Origin: Clostridia bacterium
GTDB lineage: Bacteria; Bacillota; Clostridia; Christensenellales; Aristaeellaceae
Assembly (NCBI GenBank): GCA_017938695.1
Contig: JAGBBA010000072.1
Coordinates: forward strand, 78,444-142,443
Direction: 5' to 3'
Length of the DNA: 64,000 bases
Below the pieces are notes generated by a model, which was given only the letters and a program-made list of their open reading frames with translations, did no database searches and was not told the DNA's origin. Shown piece after piece: positions 3 through 50,929 of the stretch. The stretch's first letter is position 1. Every line of letters begins with the position of its first letter. The position numbers and the translations under genes were made by a program.

Positions 3-944
3 GAGGCTGGCGGCACCCTGAAATATGTGTACGATCCCGATCCCAACAAGGTGGCCCAGTTTGTGAAGACCTATCCCCAGGTGCAGGTGGCCCTTTCCGA
101 GCAGCAGGTGCTGGACGACAAGGAGACCCACATGATCTGCGGTGCCCACATCACCAGCGAGCGCGGCCCCTTCGGCCTTCGCGTGATGGGCGCAGGCAAG
201 GATTATTTCACCGATAAGGCTCCCTTTACCACCATGTCCCAGCTGAACGCTGCCAAGGAAATGGCCAAGGCTACCGGCCGCAAGTACATGGTGTACTATG
301 GCGAGCGCATCCACTGCCAGGCCGCTACCCTGGCTGGCGAAATGATCCAGGCTGGCGAGATCGGCCAGGTCGTCCATGTGGAAGGCTTCGGCCCCCACCG
401 CCTGATGGCCCACGCCCGTCCCGCCTGGTTCTTTGAAAAGGAAAAGTACGGCGGCATCCTGTGCGACATCGGCTCCCACCAGATCGAGCAGTACCTGTAC
501 TTCGCTGGCGAGGAAGAGGCCCAGGTGACCTACAGCCGCATCGGCAACTATGCCAACCCCGATCACCCCGAGCTGGACGACTTCGGCGACTGCAATATCG
601 TGGGCGAAAAGGGCACCACCAACTACTTCCGTGTGGACTGGTTCACCCCCGACGGCCTGCGCACCTGGGGCGACGGCCGCACGCTGATCATCGGCACCAA
701 GGGCTATATCGAGCTGCGCAAGTACGTCAACGTGGGCACCGACATGGAAGGCGGCGACCATGTGTACCTGGTCAACAGCCAGAAGGAACAGTACTTCAAT
801 GCCGACGGCGCGGGCTGCCCCTTCTTCGGTCAGCTGGTGCTGGACTGCCTCAACCGCACCGAGAACGCCATGACCCAGCACCATGCCTTCAAGGCTGCGG
901 AGCTGTGCCTGCAGGCCCAGGAAAAGGCCATCGTGATCAAATAA
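3..944 (+). CDS. Gfo/Idh/MocA-family NAD(P)-dependent oxidoreductase (5' truncated)
   Basis: The open frame runs in from the left edge without a start codon, so the gene is 5'-partial; 313 residues are present. The first residues look like the end of a Rossmann beta-alpha-beta unit with the acidic DPD that usually contacts the cofactor ribose. Further on are TDKAPFTTM, at the position of the family's EKP loop, and CDIGSHQIEQ, resembling the D-x-G-x-H-x-x-D substrate-binding helix. The family oxidises or reduces sugars, inositols or sugar acids. A GH105 gene lies two genes downstream, so a uronate- or rhamnose-related substrate is plausible but is inference. The protein has no signal peptide in the visible part and is probably cytosolic. 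Confidence 0.85.
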   Translation, partial: EAGGTLKYVYDPDPNKVAQFVKTYPQVQVALSEQQVLDDKETHMICGAHITSERGPFGLRVMGAGKDYFTDKAPFTTMSQLNAAKEMAKATGRKYMVYYGERIHCQAATLAGEMIQAGEIGQVVHVEGFGPHRLMAHARPAWFFEKEKYGGILCDIGSHQIEQYLYFAGEEEAQVTYSRIGNYANPDHPELDDFGDCNIVGEKGTTNYFRVDWFTPDGLRTWGDGRTLIIGTKGYIELRKYVNVGTDMEGGDHVYLVNSQKEQYFNADGAGCPFFGQLVLDCLNRTENAMTQHHAFKAAELCLQAQEKAIVIK

Positions 945-38630: not shown

Positions 38631-40637
38631 TCAGGCCTGCGCCTTCAGGTCATACTCGGATTGCAGCCGGGCATTGGTGCGGCGGATCAGGAAGATGATG
38701 GTGGCAACGATGGCAGCCACAACGATCAGGCCGGGGATGAAGCCAGCACCCAGGGTGCCGGTGGTGATCAGGGTGCCGATCTGGTATACAGCGAAGCCGA
38801 TGGTGAAGCCCACAGCTAACTGGAAGCCAATGCCGCCCCACAGCCACTTGCTGCTCTTCATCTCGGAGTTCATGGCACCAATGGCCGCGAAGCAGGGGGG
38901 ACTGAAGAGGTTGAACATCAGGTAGGCCAGGGCAGCCACCTTGGTGATGGCCATAATACCGGCGATTTCAGCACCAGCACCTTCCATCATGGCCAGTTCT
39001 TCGGTGTCGATCAGGTTCTCCAGGCCAACGAAGCACACAGCCAGGGTGCCCACCACGTTCTCCTTGGCAATGAAGCCGGTCACAGCGGCGGCGGCCAGCT
39101 GCCAGCTCAGCACACCCACGATGGGTACCAGTACGTAGGCGAAGGGCTGGGCGATGGAAGCCAGGATGGAAGCATCAGCGGTTTCGGCGGGCTGGAAGTT
39201 CCAGGCGAAGGTCTGCATGATCTGCACCACGGTGTTGCACAGAAGGATGATGGTGCCAGCCTTGACGATGTAGGCCCAGCCGCGGGAGCACATGGACAGG
39301 AAGGCACGCTTCAGGCTGGGGAGCTTATACTCAGGTAGCTCGATGATGAAGAAGGACTTGCGGGCTTTGTAGCCGGTGATCTTGTTGATCAGCAGCGCGC
39401 CGAAGAAGATGATCACGATGCCCATGAAGTACATCATGGGGCCCACCCAGCTGGCGTCGGAGAAGAATGCACCGGCGAACAGGGCGATGACGGGCAGCTT
39501 GGCACCGCAGGGCATGAAGGGCGTCAGCATGGCGGTGGCGCGGCGTTCACGCTCATTGCGGATGGTGCGGCAGGCCATCACGCCGGGGATGGCGCAGCCG
39601 GTGCCGATAACGAAGGGGATCACGGACTTGCCGGAGAGGCCTACCTTCTTGAAGATGGGGTCAAGCACCACAGAGGCACGGGCCATGTAGCCGCAGTCTT
39701 CCAGCAGGGCGATGAGGAAGTACATCACCATCACCAGGGGCAGGAAGCCCAGCACGGCACCCACGCCGCCAACGATGCCGTCCACCAGCAGGGCCTGCAG
39801 GATGGGGGAGGCGTTCTCCACCAGGCCGGAGATCCACTCGGTCACAACTTCCATCCAGCCTTCCAGCACACCGGCCAGCCAGATGCCCAGGCCGCCTTCA
39901 GCCTGAGAGACCCAGAACACGCCGAACATGATGGCGGCGAAGATGATCAGGCCCAGCACAGGGTGGGTGACCACAGTGTCGATCTTGTCCTGATAATTCT
40001 TGTCCTTGGTGAAGACCTTGCGGGTCTCCACTTCCTTGACGATGTTGTTCACAAAGGAGAAACGGGCACGGTCGGCCTTTTCCACTTCGGCCTTGCTGGT
40101 CAGGTCGATGCTGCCCTGGTTGTAGGGGGCCTTTTGCACCTTGCCCACCTGGGCCACAGCGGCGTCGATCACGTTTTTCAGGCCGGCACTGTTGGTGGAA
40201 ATGGTGTCCACCACGGGGCAGCCCAGCTTGGCAGACAGGGCGGCGGAATCGATCTTGGTCTGCTTCTTCTCGTTCACGTCGGCCTTGTTCAGGGCGACCA
40301 CCATGGGGATGCCCAGCTCCAGCAGCTGGGTGGTGAAGAACAGGCTGCGGCTGAGATTGGTGGCGTCCACGATGTTCACGATCACGTCGGGGTGCTCGTT
40401 GCGCACATAGCCGCTGGTGATACTCTCTTCAGACGTGAAGGGGGACATGGAGTAAGCACCGGGAAGGTCGACGGCGATCAGCTCCTGGGGGCCGGTGCAG
40501 TAGGCCTTCTTGATGGGGTGCTCCTTCTTTTCAACGGTTACGCCTGCCCAGTTGCCGACCTTTTCGTTCCGACCGGTCAGGGCATTGTACATGGTGGTTT
40601 TGCCGCTGTTCGGGTTGCCTGTCAGTGCAATTCGCAT
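38631..40637 (-). CDS. feoB: Ferrous iron transport protein B
   Basis: 668 aa from the ATG at 40637 after AAGGAGGAAGTTCCCC. The GTPase domain holds GNPNSGKTT (7-15), VDLPGAYS (about 60) and NKAD (about 121). Helical linker and Gate regions follow, with GTGCAIPGVMACRTIRNERE and PCGAKLPVIAL, containing the conserved Cys of the Fe2+ path. Nine to ten membrane helices follow. The length is slightly short for FeoB but normal for Clostridia. It imports Fe2+ under low oxygen. It is co-transcribed with feoA, 111 nt upstream, with a DtxR-like box between them. Confidence 0.97.
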   Translation of the reverse strand: MRIALTGNPNSGKTTMYNALTGRNEKVGNWAGVTVEKKEHPIKKAYCTGPQELIAVDLPGAYSMSPFTSEESITSGYVRNEHPDVIVNIVDATNLSRSLFFTTQLLELGIPMVVALNKADVNEKKQTKIDSAALSAKLGCPVVDTISTNSAGLKNVIDAAVAQVGKVQKAPYNQGSIDLTSKAEVEKADRARFSFVNNIVKEVETRKVFTKDKNYQDKIDTVVTHPVLGLIIFAAIMFGVFWVSQAEGGLGIWLAGVLEGWMEVVTEWISGLVENASPILQALLVDGIVGGVGAVLGFLPLVMVMYFLIALLEDCGYMARASVVLDPIFKKVGLSGKSVIPFVIGTGCAIPGVMACRTIRNERERRATAMLTPFMPCGAKLPVIALFAGAFFSDASWVGPMMYFMGIVIIFFGALLINKITGYKARKSFFIIELPEYKLPSLKRAFLSMCSRGWAYIVKAGTIILLCNTVVQIMQTFAWNFQPAETADASILASIAQPFAYVLVPIVGVLSWQLAAAAVTGFIAKENVVGTLAVCFVGLENLIDTEELAMMEGAGAEIAGIMAITKVAALAYLMFNLFSPPCFAAIGAMNSEMKSSKWLWGGIGFQLAVGFTIGFAVYQIGTLITTGTLGAGFIPGLIVVAAIVATIIFLIRRTNARLQSEYDLKAQA

Positions 40638-40674
40638 GGGGAACTTCCTCCTTAGATCCAACCTGTGTCCTTTG

Positions 40675-40690
40675 GTTAGCTTTGCTTAAC
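40675..40690. promoter_or_regulatory. DtxR-type box candidate between feoA and feoB
   Basis: GTTA-N8-TAAC (GTTAGCTTTGCTTAAC). The 4-8-4 spacing equals that of the TTAGG...CCTAA half-sites of DtxR/IdeR boxes and of the two sites upstream of feoA. Confidence 0.45.
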
Positions 40691-40748
40691 TATCGGCCAA
40701 ATGAATGGCGGCAGGCAATGCCGTGCCGCAATGGGAGATGCCGGGGGA

Positions 40749-40967
40749 TCAGACAATGATGGCCTGGGCCAGCTGGTTGTCGATGCTGTAGCGGGCATCC
40801 TTAACGGAAATGACGCAGCCGCTTCGCTTTTGTGCGATCACGGTGATGGGTTCGCCGGAGTAGCAGCCCAACGAGAAGAGGAAGGAGTTCATCTCTTCGT
40901 CATCGGTGTCGATGCGGCGGATCACATACTCCACGCCTTCCTTGGCGTTCAGCAGGGTCGTTTCCAT
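40749..40967 (-). CDS. feoA: Ferrous iron transport protein A
   Basis: 72 aa; METTLLNAKEG begins 9 nt after ACAGGAGG. It is an SH3-like small protein with LGCYSGEPITVI (middle) and GCVISVKDARYSIDNQLA, which match FeoA. It supports FeoB assembly or GTPase regulation in the cytosol. It is the first gene of the feo operon behind a strong promoter with overlapping DtxR-like boxes. Confidence 0.93.
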   Translation of the reverse strand: METTLLNAKEGVEYVIRRIDTDDEEMNSFLFSLGCYSGEPITVIAQKRSGCVISVKDARYSIDNQLAQAIIV

Positions 40968-40986
40968 TTCATCAAGCCTCCTGTCG

Positions 40987-41002
40987 GTTAGGAATGCATA
41001 AC
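40987..41002. promoter_or_regulatory. DtxR-type box candidate in the feoA leader
   Basis: GTTA-N8-TAAC (GTTAGGAATGCATAAC), between the promoter and the feoA ribosome site. It has the same 4-8-4 layout as 40675-40690. Confidence 0.45.
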
Positions 41003-41028
41003 TTGCTTGCTGAAGATGAGCCACACCT

Positions 41029-41122: not shown

Positions 41123-41152
41123 TTGACTTGATTGCATCTGCCGTGCTACAAT
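41123..41152 (+). promoter_or_regulatory. Promoter of the B12-riboswitch operon
   Basis: TTGACT (41123-41128), an 18-bp spacer and TACAAT (41147-41152). The expected start near 41159 coincides with the first riboswitch stem. Confidence 0.8.
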
Positions 41153-41163
41153 GATCCCGACAA

Positions 41164-41366
41164 TTGAATCATCAAGAAGGCGCGGTTCGAAAGGCGCAGG
41201 CTGAGTAGAAGCAAAAGGGAATCCGGTTGGAATCCGGAACAACCGCCATTACTGTATTTGACCAGACAGGAGCGCATATCCATTGAAGCGTTGCTTTGAG
41301 AAGGGTGCTCCCCCGCAGGCAGCGGCCTGCGCTGGCATAAGTCAGGATACCTGCCGCGTGATTCAG
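41164..41366 (+). ncRNA. Cobalamin (adenosylcobalamin-type) riboswitch
   Basis: The closing stem is TTGAATCA (41164-41171) with TGATTCAG (41359-41366). The core GGGAATCCGGTTGGAATCCG (41217-41236), then GAACAACCGCCATTACTGTA (41237-41256), matches the conserved cobalamin aptamer. GAAGGGTGC (41300-41308) corresponds to the GGGAAGGC region, and AAGTCAGGATACCTGCC (41339-41355) is the B12 box. The aptamer binds a cobalamin and, with the terminator at 41475-41510, would switch off the genes downstream when B12 is plentiful. Confidence 0.95.
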
Positions 41367-41474
41367 GTTCAACATGATTTGGTGTGAAGAGTGCAACCGG
41401 TCGCTCGCCGCAGGGCGGGTGTGCTTTTTGCATTCTTTGTGAAAGGCAATCCCTGCGTGTGTTTGATCTGTTGT

Positions 41475-41510
41475 GCTCTTTTGACCAGACCGTCAAAAGA
41501 GCTTTTTATT
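41475..41510 (+). terminator. Terminator of the cobalamin riboswitch (expression platform)
   Basis: GCTCTTTTGAC (41475-41485) and GTCAAAAGAGC (41492-41502) form a perfect 11-bp stem, followed by TTTTTATT. It ends just 12 nt before the first start codon, so termination would silence the whole operon. Confidence 0.92.
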
Positions 41511-41522
41511 TGGGTGATGGAC

Positions 41523-41783
41523 ATGGCACTGGATGAAAAAAAGCAATGGGCGATCCTGCAATTGCAGGAGAAGCAGCGCAGACTGGGCCGTTTGCCGAAA
41601 AAGGACGACTTTGACGAAACAGACCGCGCCCGCATCAAGGCGTTTCTGGGCCCCTGGCCCCGTGCGCTGGAGGCAGCGGGTCTGAAGGAAGCCAAGCCAA
41701 AGCCGCCCAAGCCCCACAAACGGAAGAAGGCTGCCAACACAGCCGGAAACCATCCGGAAAAAGAAAGGGAGTCATTAGAATGA
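41523..41783 (+). CDS. Small HNH-repeat-like (homing-endonuclease-associated repeat) protein, first gene of the B12 operon
   Basis: 86 aa from the ATG at 41523 with GGGTG 6 nt upstream; an ATG at 41517 is possible. Residues about 20-50, LGRLPKKDDFD...IKAFLGPWPRALEAAGL, match the homing-endonuclease-associated repeat (a small helical DNA-binding unit), present once. No HNH nuclease residues exist. The C-terminus is a basic Pro/Lys-rich tail. It is coupled to the next gene by an ATGA overlap and is the first gene after the riboswitch. It may be a small DNA- or RNA-binding regulator, but this is inference. Confidence 0.75.
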   Translation: MALDEKKQWAILQLQEKQRRLGRLPKKDDFDETDRARIKAFLGPWPRALEAAGLKEAKPKPPKPHKRKKAANTAGNHPEKERESLE

Positions 41784-42457
41784 AAAAGTTCCTGTCCTTG
41801 CTGCTGGTGCTGCTGATGAGCACCGTTCCTGCCCTGGCAGAGGACGCGCAGGTGTATGTGTCCATTTCCGACGATACCGGCGCCCTGGTACTGGCCTATG
41901 AAGCCATTGCCGTCACCGATGCGGATGCCGACGGCGCACTGACCATCTACGACGCGTTGGCCTGTGCCCATGCGGCTAAGCATGAAAACGGCGCAGAGGC
42001 ATTCCTGGCAGAGGAAACGGAGTATGGGCTGTCCCTGATGAAGCTGTGGGGCGTGGAGAATGGCGGCAGCTACGGCTACTACCTGAACGATGCCTCCGCC
42101 TGGAGCCTGCTGGATCCCGTTCAGCCCGGCGACCATGTGAAGTCCTATGCCTTTACCGACCTGGCGGCCTGGTCGGATGCCTACAGCTTTTTTGCGGCCC
42201 CTGCGGCGGAGGCGACCGTGGGTGCAGAAGTGGCGTTGTGCCTTTCCGCTGCCGGGTATGACGAAGCCTGGAACCCCGTGACGCTGGCGGTGGAGGGTGC
42301 CTCCATCACCGTGAACGGTGAAGCCTGCGGCGTAGTGACCGATGCCGAGGGCAAGGCTGTTTTGACCTTTGACCAGCCCGGCGTATATGTGGTCAGCGCG
42401 GTCAGTGAAAACCAGACCCTGGTGCCGCCGGTGTGCCGGGTGACCGTAGCGGAGTAA
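41780..42457 (+). CDS. Secreted DUF4430 (transcobalamin C-terminal-like) protein
   Basis: 225 aa. MKKFLSLLLVLLMSTVPALA is a signal peptide (A-x-A). Residues about 22-128 form a DUF4430 domain: DGALTIYDALACAH, GGSYGYYLNDASAW and PVQPGDHVKSYAFTD. The domain is named for its likeness to the beta domain of transcobalamin and intrinsic factor, which contacts B12. Residues about 140-225 look like an Ig-like bacterial beta-sandwich (GVYVVSAVSENQT). No lipobox or anchor is present. Given the riboswitch and ECF genes, it probably captures corrinoids outside the cell. Confidence 0.88.
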   Translation: MKKFLSLLLVLLMSTVPALAEDAQVYVSISDDTGALVLAYEAIAVTDADADGALTIYDALACAHAAKHENGAEAFLAEETEYGLSLMKLWGVENGGSYGYYLNDASAWSLLDPVQPGDHVKSYAFTDLAAWSDAYSFFAAPAAEATVGAEVALCLSAAGYDEAWNPVTLAVEGASITVNGEACGVVTDAEGKAVLTFDQPGVYVVSAVSENQTLVPPVCRVTVAE

Positions 42458-42460
42458 AGC

Positions 42461-43948
42461 ATGAAGAGATTATGTGCACTGCTGCTGTGCCTGATGATGT
42501 GCAGCACCGCCTGGGCGGAAGCACCCGACCGGGTGGGGGACATTATTGAGGATATTTTGTCCTATGAAATGAACAAAGCCGGTGTGGATTCCATCCAAGC
42601 CTGGATGGACGGCCCCCTGGCCGACGCCGCCGGGAAAAGTGCCGAGTGGTATGTGATCGCTCTGAGCCAGTGGGGGACATACGACTTCACCGCCTATCAG
42701 GCCAAGCTGCGCACCTACCTGGCGGAAACGACCGTGCGGGGTGCAGTCACCCGGCAGAAGTACGCCCTGGCCCTGCGTGCCACTGGCGCGGCGGATGCGT
42801 ACATCCAGGCTGTGATGGAGGATTCCATCGGCCAGCAGGGCATCATGAGCTGGGCCTACGGTCTGCACCTGATGAACCTCGGCTGCACCAGCAAGAGAAC
42901 CTCGGCGGACACGATCATCGAGCAACTTTTGTCCCTTCAATTGCCCGATGGCGGCTGGGCACTAAACGGCGCGGTCAGCGATGTAGACGTGACAGCGATG
43001 GTGTTACAAGCACTTGCGCCCCACGCGCAGCGGGAGGATGTATCCGCCGCCGTGGCTGATGCACTGCAACGATTGTCCCAATGCCAGCTGGACGGCGGCG
43101 GCTTTGCCAGCTACGGCACGCCCAACCCGGAAAGTGCCGCCCAGGTGATGATCGCCCTGTGCGCGCTGGGTATCGACCCCTTGCAGGATGTGCGGTTCAT
43201 CAAAAAAGGCCATACCATTCTGGATGGCATGGCCCGGTATCAGCTGCCGGAGGGGGCATTCAGCCACACCCTGGGCGGTGCGGCCAATGGGAATGCAACG
43301 GTGCAGGTGCTGGGTGCGCTGACGGGGTATCAGCGGATGCTTGGGGCTCAACCGGCTCAGGGCGAATTGCCTGCCCCCCTGGGTTACAAGCCGGTGGCCG
43401 TTGCGGCGATTATGCTCCTCGCCCTGCTGGCCTGCGGCGTTCTGCTGCTGAAAGGCAAACGCCACCCGAAGAACTTCCTGGCGGTGGGCATTCTGGCAGG
43501 GTTACTGGTGGCTGGGGTGCTGCTGACGGACTTCCAGTCCGCAGAGGAATACTACGGCGGTACGCCAGTGGAAAAGCCCAACGCCGTCGGTACGGTAACC
43601 ATGGAGATCCGCTGCGATACGGTGGCTGGCCGGGCGGCGCACATCCCGGCGGATGGTGTGCTGCTGCCGCAAACGGCTTTTGCCATCGCGGAGGGCGACA
43701 CGGTCTACGACATCCTGACGGAAGCGGCGCAGCAGTACAGCCTGCACATGGAAAGCTCCGGTGCGCCGGGGATGATCTACATTGCCGGGCTGGGGCATGT
43801 GTACGAGTTCGACTTCGGCGACCTGTCCGGCTGGATGGTGTTTGTGAACGGAGAATCCCTTTCGGCGGGGTGTGATCAGTATCAGCTGGCCGACGGGGAC
43901 AGCATCCGGTGGCTGTACAGCTGCGACATGGGCAGCGACCTGAAATAA
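42461..43948 (+). CDS. Membrane-tethered intrinsic-factor-like protein: alpha/alpha-barrel, helical hairpin, DUF4430
   Basis: 495 aa, 3 nt after the preceding gene. Residues 1-19 are a signal peptide. Residues about 25-295 form a squalene-cyclase/prenyltransferase-type alpha/alpha barrel with repeats QLPDGGWALNG (160-170), QLDGGGFASYG (209-219) and QLPEGAFSHTLGG (261-273). Two membrane helices (about 310-330 and 338-355) flank a basic loop, KGKRHPK, placing both ends outside. Residues about 376-495 are DUF4430 with LSGWMVFVNGESLSAGC (455-471). Barrel plus beta domain is the architecture of intrinsic factor/transcobalamin, here tethered beside an ECF transporter. Confidence 0.87.
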   Translation: MKRLCALLLCLMMCSTAWAEAPDRVGDIIEDILSYEMNKAGVDSIQAWMDGPLADAAGKSAEWYVIALSQWGTYDFTAYQAKLRTYLAETTVRGAVTRQKYALALRATGAADAYIQAVMEDSIGQQGIMSWAYGLHLMNLGCTSKRTSADTIIEQLLSLQLPDGGWALNGAVSDVDVTAMVLQALAPHAQREDVSAAVADALQRLSQCQLDGGGFASYGTPNPESAAQVMIALCALGIDPLQDVRFIKKGHTILDGMARYQLPEGAFSHTLGGAANGNATVQVLGALTGYQRMLGAQPAQGELPAPLGYKPVAVAAIMLLALLACGVLLLKGKRHPKNFLAVGILAGLLVAGVLLTDFQSAEEYYGGTPVEKPNAVGTVTMEIRCDTVAGRAAHIPADGVLLPQTAFAIAEGDTVYDILTEAAQQYSLHMESSGAPGMIYIAGLGHVYEFDFGDLSGWMVFVNGESLSAGCDQYQLADGDSIRWLYSCDMGSDLK

Positions 43949-43970
43949 GTGGAAGCAAGGAGGGAGAACC

Positions 43971-44840
43971 ATGCGGGGCTTTGCCGATTACAACCCCATT
44001 GCGGCGGCGGTGTATTTCCTGGCGGTGACAGGCATCGCCATGTTCTGCATGGATCCCGTGATCCTTGCATTGTCGCTGGCAGGCGCGCTGGTGACCTTCG
44101 CGCTGCTCTGCGGCCAGGGGGGACGCGCCCACTGGTACACCCTGGGGTTGTTCCTGGTGATGGCACTGATCAATCCGCTGGTGTCCCACAACGGCGTGAC
44201 GGTATTGTTTGTGATGAACCACAATCCCGTGACCCTGGAGGCCCTGCTCTACGGCGTTGCTGCGGCGGCCATGGTGGTGGCGGTGCTGTACTGGTTCCGC
44301 TGCTTTTCCTGCATCATGACCAGCGACAAGCTGCTGTACATTTTCGGCGGATTGTCGCCCCGGCTGGCGTTGATCCTGTCCATGACGCTGCGGTATGTGC
44401 CGCTGTTCGGCCAGCAGGCGAAGAAGGTGAAGCAGGCGCAGACGGCTCTGGGATTATATAAGGAAGACAACCTGATCGACAGCTTCCGGGGCGGCATGCG
44501 GGTGTTCTCGGTGATGGTCACCTGGGCGTTGGAGAACGGCATCATCACCGCCGACAGCATGACTGCCCGGGGCTACGGCCTGGGCAAGCGCAGCCGGTTC
44601 CGGCTGTTCCGCTGGCGGGCCGGGGATGTGCTTTTGCTGACCGGTTCGCTTTTGCTGGCAGGCCTTGCGCTCATGGGCGTGCATGCCCGGGCTTTCACCT
44701 GGTATCCGGCCATCGCGGCGGCACCCATGGATGCCCTGGCCATTGCAGGCTACGGGGCATACGGCGTACTGACGCTGCTGCCCGCCATCATTCACGCAAA
44801 GGAGGCGATTAAATGGCACTGCTTGATATCCAGCATGTGA
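43971..44840 (+). CDS. ecfT: ECF transporter transmembrane component EcfT
   Basis: 289 aa; the start follows AGGAGGGAGAACC. It has five to six hydrophobic helices and the long coupling-helix region LSPRLALILSMTLRYVPLFG, then SMTARGYGLG with the A-R-G motif that docks in the ATPase groove. It transfers ATPase movements to the S component. It overlaps the EcfA gene by 28 nt. Its presence within the riboswitch operon implies a dedicated (group I) ECF complex for a corrinoid. Confidence 0.93.
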   Translation: MRGFADYNPIAAAVYFLAVTGIAMFCMDPVILALSLAGALVTFALLCGQGGRAHWYTLGLFLVMALINPLVSHNGVTVLFVMNHNPVTLEALLYGVAAAAMVVAVLYWFRCFSCIMTSDKLLYIFGGLSPRLALILSMTLRYVPLFGQQAKKVKQAQTALGLYKEDNLIDSFRGGMRVFSVMVTWALENGIITADSMTARGYGLGKRSRFRLFRWRAGDVLLLTGSLLLAGLALMGVHARAFTWYPAIAAAPMDALAIAGYGAYGVLTLLPAIIHAKEAIKWHCLISSM

Positions 44841-46432
44841 GCTTTACCTATCCCGGGCAAACGCGGCCTGCTTTGCAGGACGTGTGCTTTTCGGTGCATG
44901 CAGGCGAAATGCTGGCGGTGTGCGGTGCCACCGGCAGCGGAAAATCCACGCTGCTGCGCCTGTTGAAGCGTGAGCTGGCCCCTTTGGGCGAAAAGACGGG
45001 CCGCATCCTGATGAACGGCGTGCCCCAGGAGGATGTGCCGGAGGCAGAAGCAGCCTATCAGGTGGGGTATGTGATGCAGCGGCCGGAGCAGCAGATCGTG
45101 ACCGACAAGGTGTGGCACGAGCTGGCTTTCGGCCTGGAAAACATGGCTTTGCCCCAGCCGGTGATCGCCCGGCGGGTGGCGGAGATGGCTGCCTATTTCG
45201 GCATGGAGGACTGGTACGACAAGCCGGTGAGCAGCCTCTCCGGCGGCCAGAAGCAGCTGTTGAATCTGGCGGCGGTGATGGTAATGCAGCCCTCGCTGCT
45301 CATCCTGGACGAACCCACCGCCCAGCTGGATCCCATTGCAGCGGCGGAATTCATCGCCACGGTGCGCAAGCTGAACCAGGATACGGGCCTGACGGTGATC
45401 ATCACCGAGCACCGGCTGGAGGAGGTCATCCCCCTGTGCGACCGGTTGCTGGTGCTGGAGCAGGGCCGGGTGCTGGCCTGCGATGAGCCCCGGCAGGTGA
45501 TCGCCAAGCTCCATGACCGGCCGGAACTGCTCTGCGCCATGCCTGCGGCGGCACGGCTGTACCATGCCCTGGGGGCGGACGGCGTGTGCCCCCTCAGCGT
45601 CCGGGAAGGTCGAATGCTGGTGGAGAACTGCCGCGGCCGGGGGCGCGGCCTGCCTGAGGAAGAATGCACCCCTGGCACCCCTGCGCTGGAATGCAAGGAG
45701 GTGTTCTTCCGCTATGACCGCCATGGCCCCGATGTGCTGCAAGGCCTGAACCTGACGGTGCATGAAGGGGAGATCTGCTGCGTTCTGGGGGGCAACGGCT
45801 CCGGCAAGACCACCATGCTCACCGTGGCGGCAGGGCTGAACAAACCCTGCGGCGGCGCGGTGAAGGTGTTCGGCAAAAAGATCAAGGACTACAAGAACCA
45901 GTCGCTGTACCGGGAGTGCCTCACCCTGCTGCCCCAGGACGTGCAGACGGTGTTCCTGTGCAACACCGTGGAGGAGGAGCTGGCCGACGCCCAGGCCGGG
46001 GTGGACATGCTGCCCTTTGACCTGCGTCCGCTGATGCACCAGCATCCCTACGATCTTTCCGGCGGCGAGCAGCAGCTGGTGGCCCTGGCCAAGGTGCTGG
46101 CCACCAAGCCCCGATTGCTCCTGCTGGACGAACCCACCAAGGGCGTGGATGCTGCTGCCAAGGGCAAGCTGATCGGCATACTGAAAGAGCTGAAGGCCCG
46201 GGGCCTGACCATCGTCATCGTGACCCATGATGTGGAGTTCGCGGCCCTGTGCGCTGACCGCTGCGCCATGTTCTTCCGGGGGAGCGTCGTTTCCACCGGT
46301 GCGCCCAGGACGTTCTTCAGCCAGAACAGCTTCTACACCACAGCCGTCAGCCGCATGACCCGGGGCTGGTTCCGCAACGCCGTTACCGTGGAGGACGCGG
46401 CGGCCCTTTGCAGACAGGGGGGCGCGGAATGA
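44813..46432 (+). CDS. ecfA: Fused double ECF ATPase (EcfA-EcfA')
   Basis: 539 aa holding two full ABC domains. Domain 1 has Walker A GATGSGKST (about 38-46), signature LSGGQKQLL and Walker B LLILDEPTAQ. Domain 2 begins near residue 290, with Walker A GGNGSGKTT (about 325), signature LSGGEQQLV and LLLLDEPTKG. Cobalt/ECF ATPases are more often two genes; here both are fused, fixing 1:1 stoichiometry. It drives B12 (inferred) import together with EcfT and the S component, whose start overlaps its stop by 4 nt. Confidence 0.95.
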   Translation: MALLDIQHVSFTYPGQTRPALQDVCFSVHAGEMLAVCGATGSGKSTLLRLLKRELAPLGEKTGRILMNGVPQEDVPEAEAAYQVGYVMQRPEQQIVTDKVWHELAFGLENMALPQPVIARRVAEMAAYFGMEDWYDKPVSSLSGGQKQLLNLAAVMVMQPSLLILDEPTAQLDPIAAAEFIATVRKLNQDTGLTVIITEHRLEEVIPLCDRLLVLEQGRVLACDEPRQVIAKLHDRPELLCAMPAAARLYHALGADGVCPLSVREGRMLVENCRGRGRGLPEEECTPGTPALECKEVFFRYDRHGPDVLQGLNLTVHEGEICCVLGGNGSGKTTMLTVAAGLNKPCGGAVKVFGKKIKDYKNQSLYRECLTLLPQDVQTVFLCNTVEEELADAQAGVDMLPFDLRPLMHQHPYDLSGGEQQLVALAKVLATKPRLLLLDEPTKGVDAAAKGKLIGILKELKARGLTIVIVTHDVEFAALCADRCAMFFRGSVVSTGAPRTFFSQNSFYTTAVSRMTRGWFRNAVTVEDAAALCRQGGAE

Positions 46433-47115
46433 TCGTGATCAAAAACAGCCGGGTGCGGCAGATGCTGCGCTGGGTGATTCCGCTTTTGGCCATCCCTGCC
46501 TTGGTGGCTCTGGGGGCGGCGGTGCTGCCGGAAAAGCAGCATCTGCTGGTGTCCCTGGGGGTGGCCGTGCTGGCGGTGGTGCTGTTCCTCACGGGCTTTG
46601 AGCAGAAAAAAACCGGCGCGCGCCGGATGGTCATCGTATCAGTGATGGTGGCACTGTGCATCGTGGGCCGGATGATTCCCCTGTTCAAGCCGGTGACCGC
46701 ACTGACCATCATCATCGCCATGTATCTGGGGGGTGAGGCCGGGTTCCTCACCGGCGCGCTGGCGGCGGTACTGTCGAACTTCTATTTCGGCCAGGGCCCC
46801 TGGACGCCCTTTCAGATGCTGGCCTGGGGGCTCATCGGCCTGATGGCCGGGTACCTTGCGCCGCTGCTCAAAAAAAGCCGCGCTCTGCTGCTGATCTTCG
46901 GTGTGCTGGCAGGGGCGGCCTATTCCATGGTGATGGACGTGTGGACGGTGCTGTGGTACGACGGCGGCTTCAACCCTGCCCTGTACCTGACGGCCGTGGC
47001 GGCGGCATTGCCCCACACGGCGGTGTATGCACTGTCGAATTTCGCTTTTCTGTGGTTCCTGGCCAGGCCCTTCGGCGAAAAGCTGGAAAGGGTCCGGGTC
47101 AAGTATGGTGTGTGA
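46429..47115 (+). CDS. ECF transporter S component, probable cobalamin-specific
   Basis: 228 aa from the ATG at 46429, which overlaps the EcfA stop (ATGA). Two N-terminal helices (about 9-55) precede an S-component core of six helices with YLGGEAGFLTGALAAVLSNF and FGQGPWTPFQM (about 105-140), typical of the S-component loop-helix transition. Relatives of this type include CbrT-like B12 subunits, but the substrate is inferred mainly from the riboswitch and DUF4430 genes in the operon. It is the last gene, with no terminator before the convergent SDR. Confidence 0.88.
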   Translation: MIVIKNSRVRQMLRWVIPLLAIPALVALGAAVLPEKQHLLVSLGVAVLAVVLFLTGFEQKKTGARRMVIVSVMVALCIVGRMIPLFKPVTALTIIIAMYLGGEAGFLTGALAAVLSNFYFGQGPWTPFQMLAWGLIGLMAGYLAPLLKKSRALLLIFGVLAGAAYSMVMDVWTVLWYDGGFNPALYLTAVAAALPHTAVYALSNFAFLWFLARPFGEKLERVRVKYGV

Positions 47116-47118
47116 GGA

Positions 47119-47829
47119 TCATTCCTCCAGCGACCAGCCGTGGTCGCCGTGGTAGATCATCTGCCGGGTCATGCCGCCGTCGATACAGATGTTTTCGCCG
47201 GTGATGAACCCGGCTTTTTCTGTGCACAGAAACATGACCATGTGGGCGATATCCATGGGATGGCCCACCCGGCCCGCAGGCTGCTGGGTCGCATCCGACC
47301 CGTGATAGACGGTGTAGGCGGTGTCGATCCACCCGGGGGAGATGGAGTTCACGCGCACTTTGCCAGCCAGGGATACCGCCAGCGCGTGGGTCAGCGCGGC
47401 GATGCCGCCCTTGGCAGCGGTGTAGCTTTCGGTTTGGGGCTGGCTCATGCGGTCGCGGCTGGAGGACAGGTTGATCACGCTGGCCCCGGGGGTAAAGTGG
47501 GGCATGAACAGCTTGGTGAGGTAAAACGCCGCCGTGACGCCCACGTTCAGCGCGTGGGTGAAGTCCTCCCAGGTGCACTGGTCGATGCCCTTCATGGCCG
47601 GGGGCGCATTGTTAATGAGCACATCCACCCGGCCGTGCTGGCTGATGACTTGCTGTGCAAAAGCCTCCAGGGTGGCCTTGTCGCCGATGTCGCCCCGGAA
47701 GGTGCAGCCCTCCTGGATGTCGATGGAACAAACGGTGGCTCCGGCCTTTTCAAAGCATTCGCACAAGCAGCGGCCGATGCCCTGGGCACCGCCGGTAATG
47801 ACCACGACCTTCTGGTCAAAGCGTTCCAT
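47119..47829 (-). CDS. Short-chain dehydrogenase/reductase (classical SDR)
   Basis: 236 aa from the ATG at 47829 after AAAGGAGCGCAAACC. It shows the NAD(P) loop TGGAQGIG (about 13-20), NNAPP, the catalytic Ser in NLSSSRD, and YTAAK (Tyr-x3-Lys). ENICIDGGMT is the usual C-terminal element. It likely oxidises or reduces a sugar or sugar-derived alcohol. It lies 30 nt after the GH3 gene on the same strand and is probably co-transcribed. Its stop codon is 3 nt from that of the convergent B12 operon. Confidence 0.93.
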   Translation of the reverse strand: MERFDQKVVVITGGAQGIGRCLCECFEKAGATVCSIDIQEGCTFRGDIGDKATLEAFAQQVISQHGRVDVLINNAPPAMKGIDQCTWEDFTHALNVGVTAAFYLTKLFMPHFTPGASVINLSSSRDRMSQPQTESYTAAKGGIAALTHALAVSLAGKVRVNSISPGWIDTAYTVYHGSDATQQPAGRVGHPMDIAHMVMFLCTEKAGFITGENICIDGGMTRQMIYHGDHGWSLEE

Positions 47830-47859
47830 GGTTTGCGCTCCTTTCTGCATGGCCGGGCA

Positions 47860-50751
47860 TCAGTTGGCGATGCCCAGGCGGATCTTCCTTTCGCCGGGGG
47901 TGGTGCGGGCCTGCATAAAGCTCACCTGCACGTCGCCGGAAAGCAGCAGGGTGATACTGCCCTGGACGGCATCCTCGGGAAGAAGGAAGTCGATGTCTTC
48001 CCAAATGGGCTGGCGTTCGCGGGCGCGGGCCTCGATATCCCGATAGGCGTAGCGATCCATGGGCGGTGCGCTGCGGTGCTCGCAGGTGCGGGTGTCGCCC
48101 TGCCACTGGCCGATCTCCTGACCGTTCAGCAGCACGGTGATGCTGCCGCCGGTGCGGCTCATCACCCGAAGGGAGAGCAGGCCATGCTCCGGGTCGAACT
48201 GGCAGTCCCGGTAGGTGACGCTGGCCTGGGGCGCATCCAGCCTGGGGCTCACGCAGGTGTAGCCCAGGGTGCCCTGCAAAAGGGTGATGTGCTCACAGTC
48301 GTCATAATGATCCGCCGGGGTGATGCGCTGCATATCGCGCAGGCCGGTGGTTTCGCCGGGGATGTGGCACCGGGCCCGGGCGGCTTCCTCCGCGCTGGAG
48401 GGCCCGGCAAAGAAGCGGTACTCGCCCTCTTCCACCATCAGGCGGCGGCTGATCACATCGTAGAAGCGCAGCTCCGCCACCGGGGCGGTGAGGTGCACGG
48501 TGCGCTTTTCACCGGGCTGCATATCGTGCAGACGCGTGAAGGCCAGCAGCTGGCGCAGGGGCTTTTGCACCCGGCTGGCCGGGGCGATGCCGTACACCTG
48601 GGCCACCTCGTCGCTGGCGGCAGGGCCGGTGTTTTCCACCGTGAAGGTAAAGTGCAGCTGGCCGTCTTCGCAGGCGACATGCAGATCATGGTAGGCAAAG
48701 CTGGTATAGGTGCAGCCGTGGCCGAAGGGGTAGAGCACCTGGCCGTCAAAATAGCGGTAGGTGCGTTTGCCGCGGATGATGTCATAATCGTCGATATCCG
48801 GCAGCTGGTCGTCGCTGCGGTACCAGGTCATGTTCAGGCGGCCGGCAGGGGCAGCCAGGCCGTAAAGGGTGTTGGCGACGGCCTGGCCCATGCTCTGGGC
48901 ACCGGTGGCACTGAGCAGCACGGCAGGCAGGTTGTCCTTGGCGTAGGGGATGGCATAGGGGTAGTTGGTCATCAGCACCAGGGCGGTGCGGGGATTGGCC
49001 TGGTGCACGCATTCCAGCAGGCACTGCTGCTGGGGCGGCAGGCAGATGGTGTGGCGATCCAGCTCCTCCTTGGCAGGGATCATGGGCGAGTTGCCCAGGG
49101 CCAGCACCACGGTATCGGCCTGTTTGGCCAGGGAAACGGCCCGGGTGATGCCGCTCTCCACCACCTCGATGGTCAGGGGCGCACCGGTAAAGCTGCTGCC
49201 GGAAACCAGCTGGCCGTCCTGCACATCCACCGGCCAGTGGAAGCGGTTGAGCAGGTGGTCGCCTTCGATGTGGAAGACCTCCAGCACAAACCAGTTGAAG
49301 GGGTGCTCGCGCTGGGCCCCCAGGGGATTGTGCTGGGTGGAGGGCCCGCCGGGCATGGTCATGCACAGGTACTTGCCGGTGCGCACGCAGCGGAAGGTGT
49401 AGGCGTTGTCGCCCCAATCCTCCATGATGAACACGTCCGGCTCGTCGGACAGGGAAACGGAGCCGTCGTCATTCACCCGTGCGCCCTTGTCGGCGAAGCG
49501 GAGGATCACCCGGTCCCAGCCGTCGCAGTGCTCATAGGGGGCATGCAGCTGATCCAGGCCGTCCTTCAGGGTGACGCGGCAGGGCGGCTCGCCGCCGTAC
49601 CAGTCCTGGAACCAGCGGTCGGCCATGGGGCCGATGAGGGCCACCTTCCGGCTTTTGTCCAGGGGCAAAAGGCCGTCGTTCTGCAGCAGCACCAGGGATT
49701 CCTCCGCAGCCCTCAAGGCCAGGGCGGAGGCGGCGTCGGTGCACAGGTCGGCCTCAGTCACATGGCTGTAAGGGTTGGCGTCGCCGTCGTAATGTCCCAA
49801 GCGCATGGCCACCAGCAGCTTATTGCGGATGGCCCGATCCAGGTCGGCTTCGGTGATGAGCCCCTGCTCCCAGGCATCCTGGGCGGCGCGTTCCACCATG
49901 GCCGGATTGTCGCTCATGCCGTCCACACCGGCTTTGAGGGCATCGGCGATGGCCTGGGCGTGGTTGCCGTAATAATGCTGACCGCTGACCACCAGGTTCA
50001 GCGCGCCGCCGTCGCCCACGGCGTGGTTCAGGCCGTACTGCTCCTTGAGGATGGCGGTCACCTCGTCATTGAGGATGCCCACCTTGCCGTTGATGCGGTT
50101 ATAGGCAGTCATGATGCCCTGGGCATGGCTGTCCTCAATGCAGCGGCGGAAGGGCTCCAGGTACAGCTCGTATTTGTTCCGGGGATCCACGTCGGCGTTT
50201 TTCCAGGCGCGGCCTTCCTCGGTATTGTTGGCGTAGAAATGCTTCAGGGTGGCGGCGGTGCGGATGTACTTTTCATCATCGCCCTGCATGCCGCGGATAT
50301 ACGCCCCGGCCATGCAGCCGGTGAGCAGGGGATCCTCGCCGTAGCCCTCTTCGTTGCGGCCCCAGCGGGGGTCGCGCTCCAGGTCAACGGTGGGGGCCCA
50401 GCGGCTTAGCCCCCGTCCGGGGTGCCGCTGGCTGACCACCCGAGCCTCCACGCCCACCACTTCACCACAGGCGCGGATCAGTTCTGGGTCCCAGGTGGCA
50501 CTCATGCCGATGGGCTGGGGGAAGGAGGTGGTGATGTCCGGTGCGCCCAGGCCGTTCTGGTCGTTGCGGGCCTCCACGCCATGGGCTGCCTCGCCGCCCA
50601 GGCCGAAAGGCGCGATGCCCAGCCGCTCGCAGGCGGGCATGAGGGAGGACAGCCAGGAGAGCTTCTCCTGGCAGGTCAGGTTGTCGAGCAGCCAGCTGAT
50701 ACGCTCCTCAAACGGGCGGGAGGCATCAAACAGGATGTTGGTATGCGCCAT
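47860..50751 (-). CDS. GH3 beta-glycosidase with internal and C-terminal extra domains
   Basis: 963 aa from the ATG at 50751 after AAAGGACGTTTCAT. The (beta/alpha)8 domain (1-300) shows RWGRNEEGYGED (130-140), KHF (170-172) and nucleophile Asp247 in AVGDGGA. The alpha/beta sandwich follows and is split by an insert (about 440-530, with YTFRCVRTGKYLC) resembling a beta-trefoil or fascin-like module. A fibronectin-III-like domain (LYPFGHGCTYTSF onward) and a C-terminal carbohydrate-binding-like segment complete it. There is no signal peptide. It is a beta-glucosidase or beta-xylosidase; the sugar cannot be fixed. Confidence 0.92.
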   Translation of the reverse strand: MAHTNILFDASRPFEERISWLLDNLTCQEKLSWLSSLMPACERLGIAPFGLGGEAAHGVEARNDQNGLGAPDITTSFPQPIGMSATWDPELIRACGEVVGVEARVVSQRHPGRGLSRWAPTVDLERDPRWGRNEEGYGEDPLLTGCMAGAYIRGMQGDDEKYIRTAATLKHFYANNTEEGRAWKNADVDPRNKYELYLEPFRRCIEDSHAQGIMTAYNRINGKVGILNDEVTAILKEQYGLNHAVGDGGALNLVVSGQHYYGNHAQAIADALKAGVDGMSDNPAMVERAAQDAWEQGLITEADLDRAIRNKLLVAMRLGHYDGDANPYSHVTEADLCTDAASALALRAAEESLVLLQNDGLLPLDKSRKVALIGPMADRWFQDWYGGEPPCRVTLKDGLDQLHAPYEHCDGWDRVILRFADKGARVNDDGSVSLSDEPDVFIMEDWGDNAYTFRCVRTGKYLCMTMPGGPSTQHNPLGAQREHPFNWFVLEVFHIEGDHLLNRFHWPVDVQDGQLVSGSSFTGAPLTIEVVESGITRAVSLAKQADTVVLALGNSPMIPAKEELDRHTICLPPQQQCLLECVHQANPRTALVLMTNYPYAIPYAKDNLPAVLLSATGAQSMGQAVANTLYGLAAPAGRLNMTWYRSDDQLPDIDDYDIIRGKRTYRYFDGQVLYPFGHGCTYTSFAYHDLHVACEDGQLHFTFTVENTGPAASDEVAQVYGIAPASRVQKPLRQLLAFTRLHDMQPGEKRTVHLTAPVAELRFYDVISRRLMVEEGEYRFFAGPSSAEEAARARCHIPGETTGLRDMQRITPADHYDDCEHITLLQGTLGYTCVSPRLDAPQASVTYRDCQFDPEHGLLSLRVMSRTGGSITVLLNGQEIGQWQGDTRTCEHRSAPPMDRYAYRDIEARARERQPIWEDIDFLLPEDAVQGSITLLLSGDVQVSFMQARTTPGERKIRLGIAN

Positions 50752-50929
50752 ATGAAACGTCCTTTCCATGATTCATGGATACTTGTTTACATGATATGGA
50801 AGTTTTTTCGCCCTGTCAAGGGACAAAAAACATTCTTTGGCAATGGCTTGCATCTTTTTCCAGATTGTGCTATCCTTGCGGCAGCGAGCATCGTTTGACA
50901 ATATATCCATCACAAGGAGGACTGTTTGC

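Follow-up and report, generated by a model that had tools for sequence, protein, structure and literature searches.

Animal intrinsic factor, transcobalamin, and haptocorrin are soluble carriers. Whether bacteria possess a counterpart that is held in the membrane and coupled to a transporter of its own is the question raised by a six-gene operon of a Clostridia bacterium (GenBank assembly GCA_017938695.1, a draft genome, 87.5% complete). The operon occupies positions 41123..47115 of a 64,000-nucleotide window, by which we mean the whole stretch of DNA analyzed (contig JAGBBA010000072.1, positions 78,444 to 142,443), and consists of a B12-type leader followed by packed or overlapping genes on the + strand (Table 1). 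The best explanation of the whole, which we regard as probable, is an operon for corrinoid uptake that B12 represses, in a host that is probably an auxotroph; in it, a receptor composed of an alpha/alpha toroid and an SLBB domain would feed a CbrT-like energy-coupling factor (ECF) transporter.

The core idea is already in print, since proteins with SLBB and toroid domains in CbiO/CbiQ operons were predicted to be B12 scavengers by Burroughs, Balaji, Iyer, and Aravind (2007; PMC1796856; statements on published work, here and below, refer to excerpts of the sources cited). Such bacteria were noted usually to lack key enzymes of B12 synthesis, and animals were proposed to have obtained their B12 carrier from Gram-positive bacteria. 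The present operon shares with those systems the SLBB and alpha/alpha toroid domains, a probable second extracellular SLBB protein, CbiO/CbiQ in one operon, and, in some members, wall anchors; the excerpted text does not mention a riboswitch, an S component, a hairpin between the two halves, their fusion history, or an HNH-repeat protein. The initial annotation of the locus, made from the letters alone, knew of no experimental description of such a capture device. In agreement with this, none of a bacterial transcobalamin-like SLBB protein was found in the open-licence literature, covered in part; the prediction of 2007 had been missed by the annotation. As far as our searches go, novelty lies in the association with a riboswitch, in the assignment of the S component to CbrT, in the outward hairpin with its fusion history, in a probable SLBB identity for the family of the 225-aa protein, and in the companion protein with HNH repeats.

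Probable corrinoid uptake: leader, transporter, and host genome

The link to B12 begins with the leader, whose cobalamin riboswitch is the sole Rfam match at gathering score within the window and the only one returned by a search of the whole draft genome with RF00174. The intrinsic terminator that follows is the probable expression platform of this riboswitch. The sigma-70-like promoter is a match by consensus only, of a kind found once in the region against 1.7 times expected from shuffled sequence. Promoter, aptamer, terminator, and six packed genes had all been listed in the initial annotation and, with this reservation for the promoter, they were confirmed.

So was the ECF module placed in the same operon. 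EcfT, a double EcfA with two ATPase domains in one chain, and a CbrT-related S component make up an ECF transporter with a CbrT-type S component. A profile of 24 such S components (A3) has as its top match in the PDB the chain 6fnp_A, which is CbrT, an S component specific for B12 (E 2.4e-17, with positions 61-227 of the 228 in the profile aligned), followed by 4hzu_S (E 1.5e-4). No CbiM-type match occurred among the Pfam/NCBIfam matches of the operon proteins or the PDB profile matches. The S component probably starts at the ATG at 46429, giving 228 aa as in most relatives, rather than at the TTG at 46408. The module resembles ECF-CbrT of Lactobacillus delbrueckii (6fnp; PMC5997447) in its homologous S component and in combining EcfT with two ATPase domains. 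It differs in being a dedicated module within the operon, in the double EcfA chain, in the extra N-terminal segments of its S component, and in the candidate extracellular capture proteins encoded beside it.

The proposed B12 link further agrees with an auxotroph-like genome. A MetH-like B12-dependent methionine synthase gene has a homoserine acyltransferase-like gene as its neighbour (L049; both functions deduced from sequence), and a second B12-binding protein is encoded in L050. CbiJ, CbiD, PduO, and BtuR had no match in the draft genome, other B12-synthesis genes not having been searched for. The host is likely a corrinoid auxotroph, and corrinoid uptake is the likely function of the operon.

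The candidate toroid–SLBB receptor and its secreted companion

The candidate receptor is the 495-aa protein, in which DUF4430 (PF14478) is matched with 58.6 bits (cut-off 23.8). The suggestion that this domain is related to the beta domain of intrinsic factor and transcobalamin withstood profile comparison: hhalign of 73 SLBB domains with the beta domains of intrinsic factor, haptocorrin, and transcobalamin gives 96.65% (E 4.7e-10, 87 columns, score 57.5), and 60 column-shuffled controls reach 19.0 at most. Intrinsic factor on the DUF4430 model scores 18.4 bits (E 0.0029, positions 1-71 of 72), under the cut-off of 23.8. A narrower SLBB profile (A4), run with hmmsearch against the PDB, returned chance kinesin matches only and did not find transcobalamin. 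We take the relationship of the SLBB domain to the animal beta domain as homology on the basis of these profiles.

The N-terminal half belongs by its sequence to the alpha/alpha toroid superfamily. A Prenyltrans toroid match attains 23.4 bits, under the cut-off of 26.5, and the alignment of 77 toroids with the animal toroids scores 29.1, above the shuffle maximum of 18.0 (0/60), setting DVDVTAM on NVDTGAM. Wrong-pair controls stay lower, with 17.0 for toroid against beta domain (shuffle maximum 17.7) and 12.6 for SLBB against animal toroid. Seven residues (D174, D176, T178, A179, M180, S225, and Q228) are invariant in 38/38 toroid rows. The domain arrangement is that of intrinsic factor, transcobalamin, and haptocorrin (2pmv, 2bb5, 4kki), with the toroid N-terminal to a beta-grasp domain and both predicted to be secreted; the membrane hairpin sets the bacterial protein apart from the animal carriers, as does the toroid family PF01122, which is matched in one relative and not in the 495-aa protein.

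That relative (L042) is a 1395-aa S-layer-type protein (L042:3414-7598) encoded behind a B12 riboswitch. It unites PF01122 (eukaryotic cobalamin-binding, 1e-13), DUF4430, a region like the 225-aa protein, and Ig-like and SLH domains in one chain, and constitutes a bacterial protein close to intrinsic factor.

Between toroid and SLBB domain the window protein carries two membrane helices, called here and in relatives by hydropathy only. Two helices were recognized in 32 of the A1 proteins, and in 26 of these the intervening loop carries more positive charge than either flank, with a mean net charge of +3.7 against +1.3 and -1.8 for the flanks. This positive loop predicts that both domains lie outside, as had been proposed for the two halves of the protein.

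In other branches toroid and SLBB domain are encoded by adjacent genes. In many of these split loci a toroid with a C-terminal helix and basic tail is followed by an SLBB protein that has either a helix at its N-terminus or a lipobox-like signal. The SLBB protein carries KKD-helix-K(I/F)QS(V/P)(D/E)(D/E)YY close to its N-terminus in seven split loci (L087, L088, L089, L091, L093, L095, and L096; in L089, L095, and L096 after upstream extension of the open frame), and the window protein has KNF-helix-DFQSAEEYY at the equivalent place; the post-helix motif in its strict pattern is present in 20/39 rows. A toroid tree (74 rows, quick search, midpoint root) places all 38 fused proteins in a single 43-row branch with an SH-aLRT of 96. 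The hairpin therefore looks like the product of a gene fusion between neighbours of the toroid-transmembrane (toroid-TM) and TM-SLBB kind, and the split neighbours together with the single branch of fused proteins imply that toroid and SLBB domain belong to one another. These comparisons lend good support to the hairpin topology and to the fusion history. The branch's other five members have toroid and membrane segment without the SLBB half; their exact placement is poorly resolved, and loss of SLBB would be a simple explanation.

The secreted 225-aa protein had been named a DUF4430 protein, a call that did not survive in Pfam: DUF4430 is not matched in the window protein, whose Pfam matches are weak Ig-like/CarboxypepD_reg-like ones only, nor is it among the 25 commonest of 36 Pfam families over 34 members of the family. 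Direct hhalign of the family against DUF4430/SLBB is weak (16%, score 24.2 against a maximum of 20.8 in 60 shuffles), falls to 3% against the SLBB family with small alignments, and the family profile has weak matches only in the PDB. What links the two families is an intermediate sequence, L044, in which residues 264-470 match the 225-aa profile (1.3e-29) and residues ~289-365, inside the same stretch, match DUF4430 (41.9 bits). By way of this bridge the 225-aa protein is a probable divergent member of the SLBB proteins, the second of the operon, and its proposed role as a beta half has indirect support. An LPXTG-type anchor is matched (E <= 0.1) in 10/34 family members; the window copy ends before such an anchor and would therefore be free or held by a partner. 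In L037, L040, and L041 a toroid-TM gene adjoins a 225-aa homologue, with a riboswitch in L037 and L041, an arrangement that points to an ability of the second SLBB protein to pair with the toroid.

Operon layout, relatives, and the HNH-repeat protein

Table 1. Leader elements and genes of the operon in window coordinates, with the parts of the 495-aa protein in residue numbers
Feature	Position	Strand	Basis and remarks
Sigma-70-like promoter, TTGACT-18 nt-TACAAT	41123..41152	+	Consensus match only
Cobalamin riboswitch aptamer, RF00174	41166..41372	+	69.2 bits, E 5.5e-15, gathering score 31.5
GC-rich hairpin 3' of aptamer	41402..41421	+	z -2.3
Intrinsic terminator, perfect 11-bp stem, then TTTTT	41475..41502	+	z -4.95
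HNH-repeat protein, 86 aa, basic tail, operon gene 1	41523..41783 (stop included)	+	PF18780
Secreted 225-aa protein, operon gene 2	41780..42457	+	Putative divergent SLBB and Ig-like/CarboxypepD_reg-like C-terminal domain
495-aa toroid/2-TM/DUF4430 protein	42461..43948	+	Pfam, profiles, hydropathy
Signal peptide of 495-aa protein			Read from sequence
Alpha/alpha toroid	residues ~30-300		
Two-helix membrane hairpin	residues ~312-357		
DUF4430/SLBB	residues 412-487		
EcfT	43971..44840	+	CbiQ PF02361, 28.8 bits, cut-off 25
Fused double EcfA ATPase	44813..46432	+	TIGR04520, 347 bits, two ABC stretches
CbrT-like ECF S component, extra N-terminal hydrophobic segments	46429..47115	+	PF07155 and PF12822; PDB profile match

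Directly upstream of the operon, on the opposite strand, lie FeoA and FeoB genes (window 38631-41024, -), and short-chain dehydrogenase-like and large glycosidase-like genes (47119-50769, -; read from the sequence) converge on its end.

The gene order is conserved among relatives, which were collected in two sets. In the first, the 495-aa protein was scanned against 84,980 genomes, one per species, giving 46 related loci in genomes that are nearly all drafts, many of them from rumen and gut samples. RF00174 is reached at gathering score in 20/46, and R1, a covariance model built from six short riboswitch variants, adds 14 loci at E <= 1e-3, so that a riboswitch is present in 34/46, each on the strand of the gene. 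The window riboswitch scores only 11.4 bits with R1, which therefore covers a different variant. The six short variants, of ~130 nt and little above the Rfam gathering score, stand upstream in L014, L018, L020, L028, L032, and L037. In the other twelve loci of the set no riboswitch was found; for three of these (L034, L039, and L043) the contig begins at or inside the operon. ECF genes adjoin 33/46, an S component is found in 26/46, and a 225-aa homologue in 37/46.

The second set derives from a toroid profile (A5), which finds the toroid in 33/396 genomes of the order, the window's own included; two genomes of the same genus were among those surveyed and neither has a match to the profile. 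For the 36 matches outside the window's genome, ECF genes occur within ~5 kb in 22 and a same-strand upstream riboswitch in 27. Eighteen of these 27 come from an Rfam scan of 28 regions, four more from R1 over 36 regions (two of them just under gathering score with RF00174), and the remaining five from a genome-wide RF00174 search of 17 genomes, chosen mostly since no match had been seen there. A false match is probable for L116, counted among the 36, whose protein scores 22 bits and has numerous hydrophobic segments. As to an association of such genes with ECF modules and B12 riboswitches, about which the initial annotation had asked, one or the other is present in 41/46 and 29/36 loci; the exceptions are weighed below.

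The first gene of the operon encodes a protein whose only Pfam match at E <= 1 is PF18780 (HNH_repeat; 38.2 bits, cut-off 26), with no HNH nuclease domain in Pfam and no match in PHROGs at E <= 0.01. Its gene was found with a profile (A8), most of whose building sequences are these same copies, in 17/46 first-set and 5/36 second-set loci besides the window, and in 23/23 copies a same-strand B12 riboswitch precedes its start by 110-303 nt. A homing element is unlikely, given the missing nuclease domain and PHROGs match and this fixed place in the loci examined, although five further matches in the class, given below, have no B12 neighbour.

Searched against the 396 genomes of the order, the window protein has matches in 10, its own included, 8 of which also carry the toroid. 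The two arrangements without a toroid are riboswitch, HNH-repeat, and YitT (L127) and riboswitch, HNH-repeat, SLBB, and ECF (L128). In the former (L127:4757-5955, genome G193) the membrane protein is of the YitT family (PF02588 and DUF2179) and, in this genome with no toroid match, may have a B12-related role. Elsewhere (L129:5537-6274, genome G181) the HNH-repeat is fused to DUF2284, predicted to bind metal, and sits between the gene of the ECF ATPase and that of a CbrT-like S component; no same-strand riboswitch accompanies it. In L130 (genome G266, contig C22) a riboswitch is followed by HNH-repeat and SLBB genes, a LolD-like ATPase, a MacB-like gene, and a 1416-aa toroid protein, possibly a non-ECF transporter in a B12 locus, the ABC gene names being read from the sequence. 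Across 391 genomes of the class, A8 matched 14, the window's own included; some matches are weak, two contain internal stop codons, and one genome (G031, L154) is shared with the survey of the order. Neighbouring SLBB genes or a riboswitch accompany eight of the other 13 (L148, L150-L154, L157, and L158), and five have no B12 neighbour (L149, L155, L156, L159, and L160). A literature search on PF18780 and its names yielded a single paper, on the modelling of repeat proteins. A nucleic-acid-binding regulator is our guess for this companion, which raises a separate question about B12 regulation.

Mechanism, alternatives, and significance

In the uptake model that we favor, scarcity of corrinoid would let the riboswitch allow transcription of the operon. 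The 495-aa protein would be anchored by its central hairpin with toroid and SLBB (beta-grasp) domain both outside, and the two might close on one corrinoid, each contributing to binding, as in intrinsic factor and transcobalamin. The other, secreted protein of probable SLBB type, which is anchored to the wall in some relatives, may help to catch the corrinoid. The corrinoid would then be handed to the S component that resembles CbrT; EcfT/EcfAA of the same operon would drive its import, mainly for use by the methionine synthase MetH. A wider combination, in which an ECF system with an anchored, fused receptor homologous to the intrinsic factor beta domain is joined by an HNH-repeat protein of the B12 regulon that is produced first and regulates corrinoid uptake through nucleic-acid binding, is doubtful, and we put it forward as a tentative idea.

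Several observations weigh against the uptake model. The match of the toroid to that of intrinsic factor is weak, with an hhalign probability of 10%; its closest solved relatives in the PDB are squalene-hopene cyclases (E ~1e-13), and PF01122 is not matched by Pfam in the 495-aa protein of the window. Because the cyclases are closer by sequence and PF01122 is missing, the superfamily of the toroid is placed and an intrinsic factor-type toroid is not, and of the barrel half described in the initial annotation only the alpha/alpha toroid stands. Five relatives (L022, L037, and L039-L041) have toroid-TM proteins without the SLBB half and without adjacent ECF genes seen. Neither ECF genes nor a riboswitch were found, within the limits used, in 5/46 loci of the first set (L022, L036, L039, L040, and L047) or in 7/36 of the second (L091, L101, L105, L108, L112, L114, and L116), of which L091 lies at a contig end and L108 and L114 have riboswitches ~8-10 kb upstream. 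In L005, L012, and L016 the fused protein and a riboswitch have no ECF genes within ~8, 2, and 2.5 kb downstream, respectively, and coupling to an adjacent ECF module is thus not universal. Finally, since the genome is a draft, missing genes are no proof of auxotrophy.

The affinity of the toroid to cyclases invites the thought that it is an extracellular enzyme, terpene-cyclase-like or corrinoid-modifying, rather than a binding shell, the more so as the stretch DVDVTAM aligns near the cyclase DXDD motif. DXDD is the motif of class II terpene cyclases and squalene-hopene cyclases. It occurs in 0/38 toroid rows, and a terpene cyclase was rejected on this count; the toroid is moreover single and secreted, and dozens of loci join it to SLBB, ECF genes, and the B12 riboswitch, all of which makes an enzymatic role very improbable. 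The SLBB proteins could instead be mainly adhesins for wall or polysaccharide, with the ECF transporter importing B12 alone like CbrT in Lactobacillus, whose S component is itself described as the substrate-binding protein (eLife 2018, PMC5997447), and relatives do carry SLH and Ig-like domains. Homology to the intrinsic factor beta domain, the toroid partner with its fusion, and co-regulation by the B12 riboswitch speak against this and leave adhesion as a distinctly unlikely account.

Another corrinoid-related substrate, such as cobalt, cobinamide, or a lower-ligand base, imported in place of complete B12 and served by the surface proteins too, is an unlikely alternative with some precedent: a cobalt ECF transporter of C. 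difficile is also under B12 riboswitch control (PMC11477304), the families matched by EcfT and EcfA take their names from cobalt, cobinamide as well as B12 is imported by the known B12 transporters of both families (PMC6593275), and cobalamin riboswitches respond to several corrinoids (PMC9600662). Against it stands the CbrT-like S component with no CbiM-type match. Import of cobalt for B12 synthesis would make little sense with CbiD and CbiJ not found, and a cobalt transporter is thought unlikely on both grounds; cobinamide as substrate would amount to a variant of the uptake model.

Surface capture of B12 by gut bacteria has a likeness in BtuG and BtuH of Bacteroides (PMC6143338; PMC8941943), compared here by description only; the envelope and the transporter are others, and in the present operon capture is predicted. 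With the toroid in 33/396 genomes of its order, the operon offers a testable B12-uptake candidate for gut and rumen Clostridia. Should the receptor prove to bind corrinoid, the 495-aa protein would stand as a counterpart of intrinsic factor in bacteria, with a bearing on the proposal of 2007 for the origin of the animal carrier, and ECF transporters, in which the S component itself binds the substrate, would be seen to accept an outer capture protein as well.

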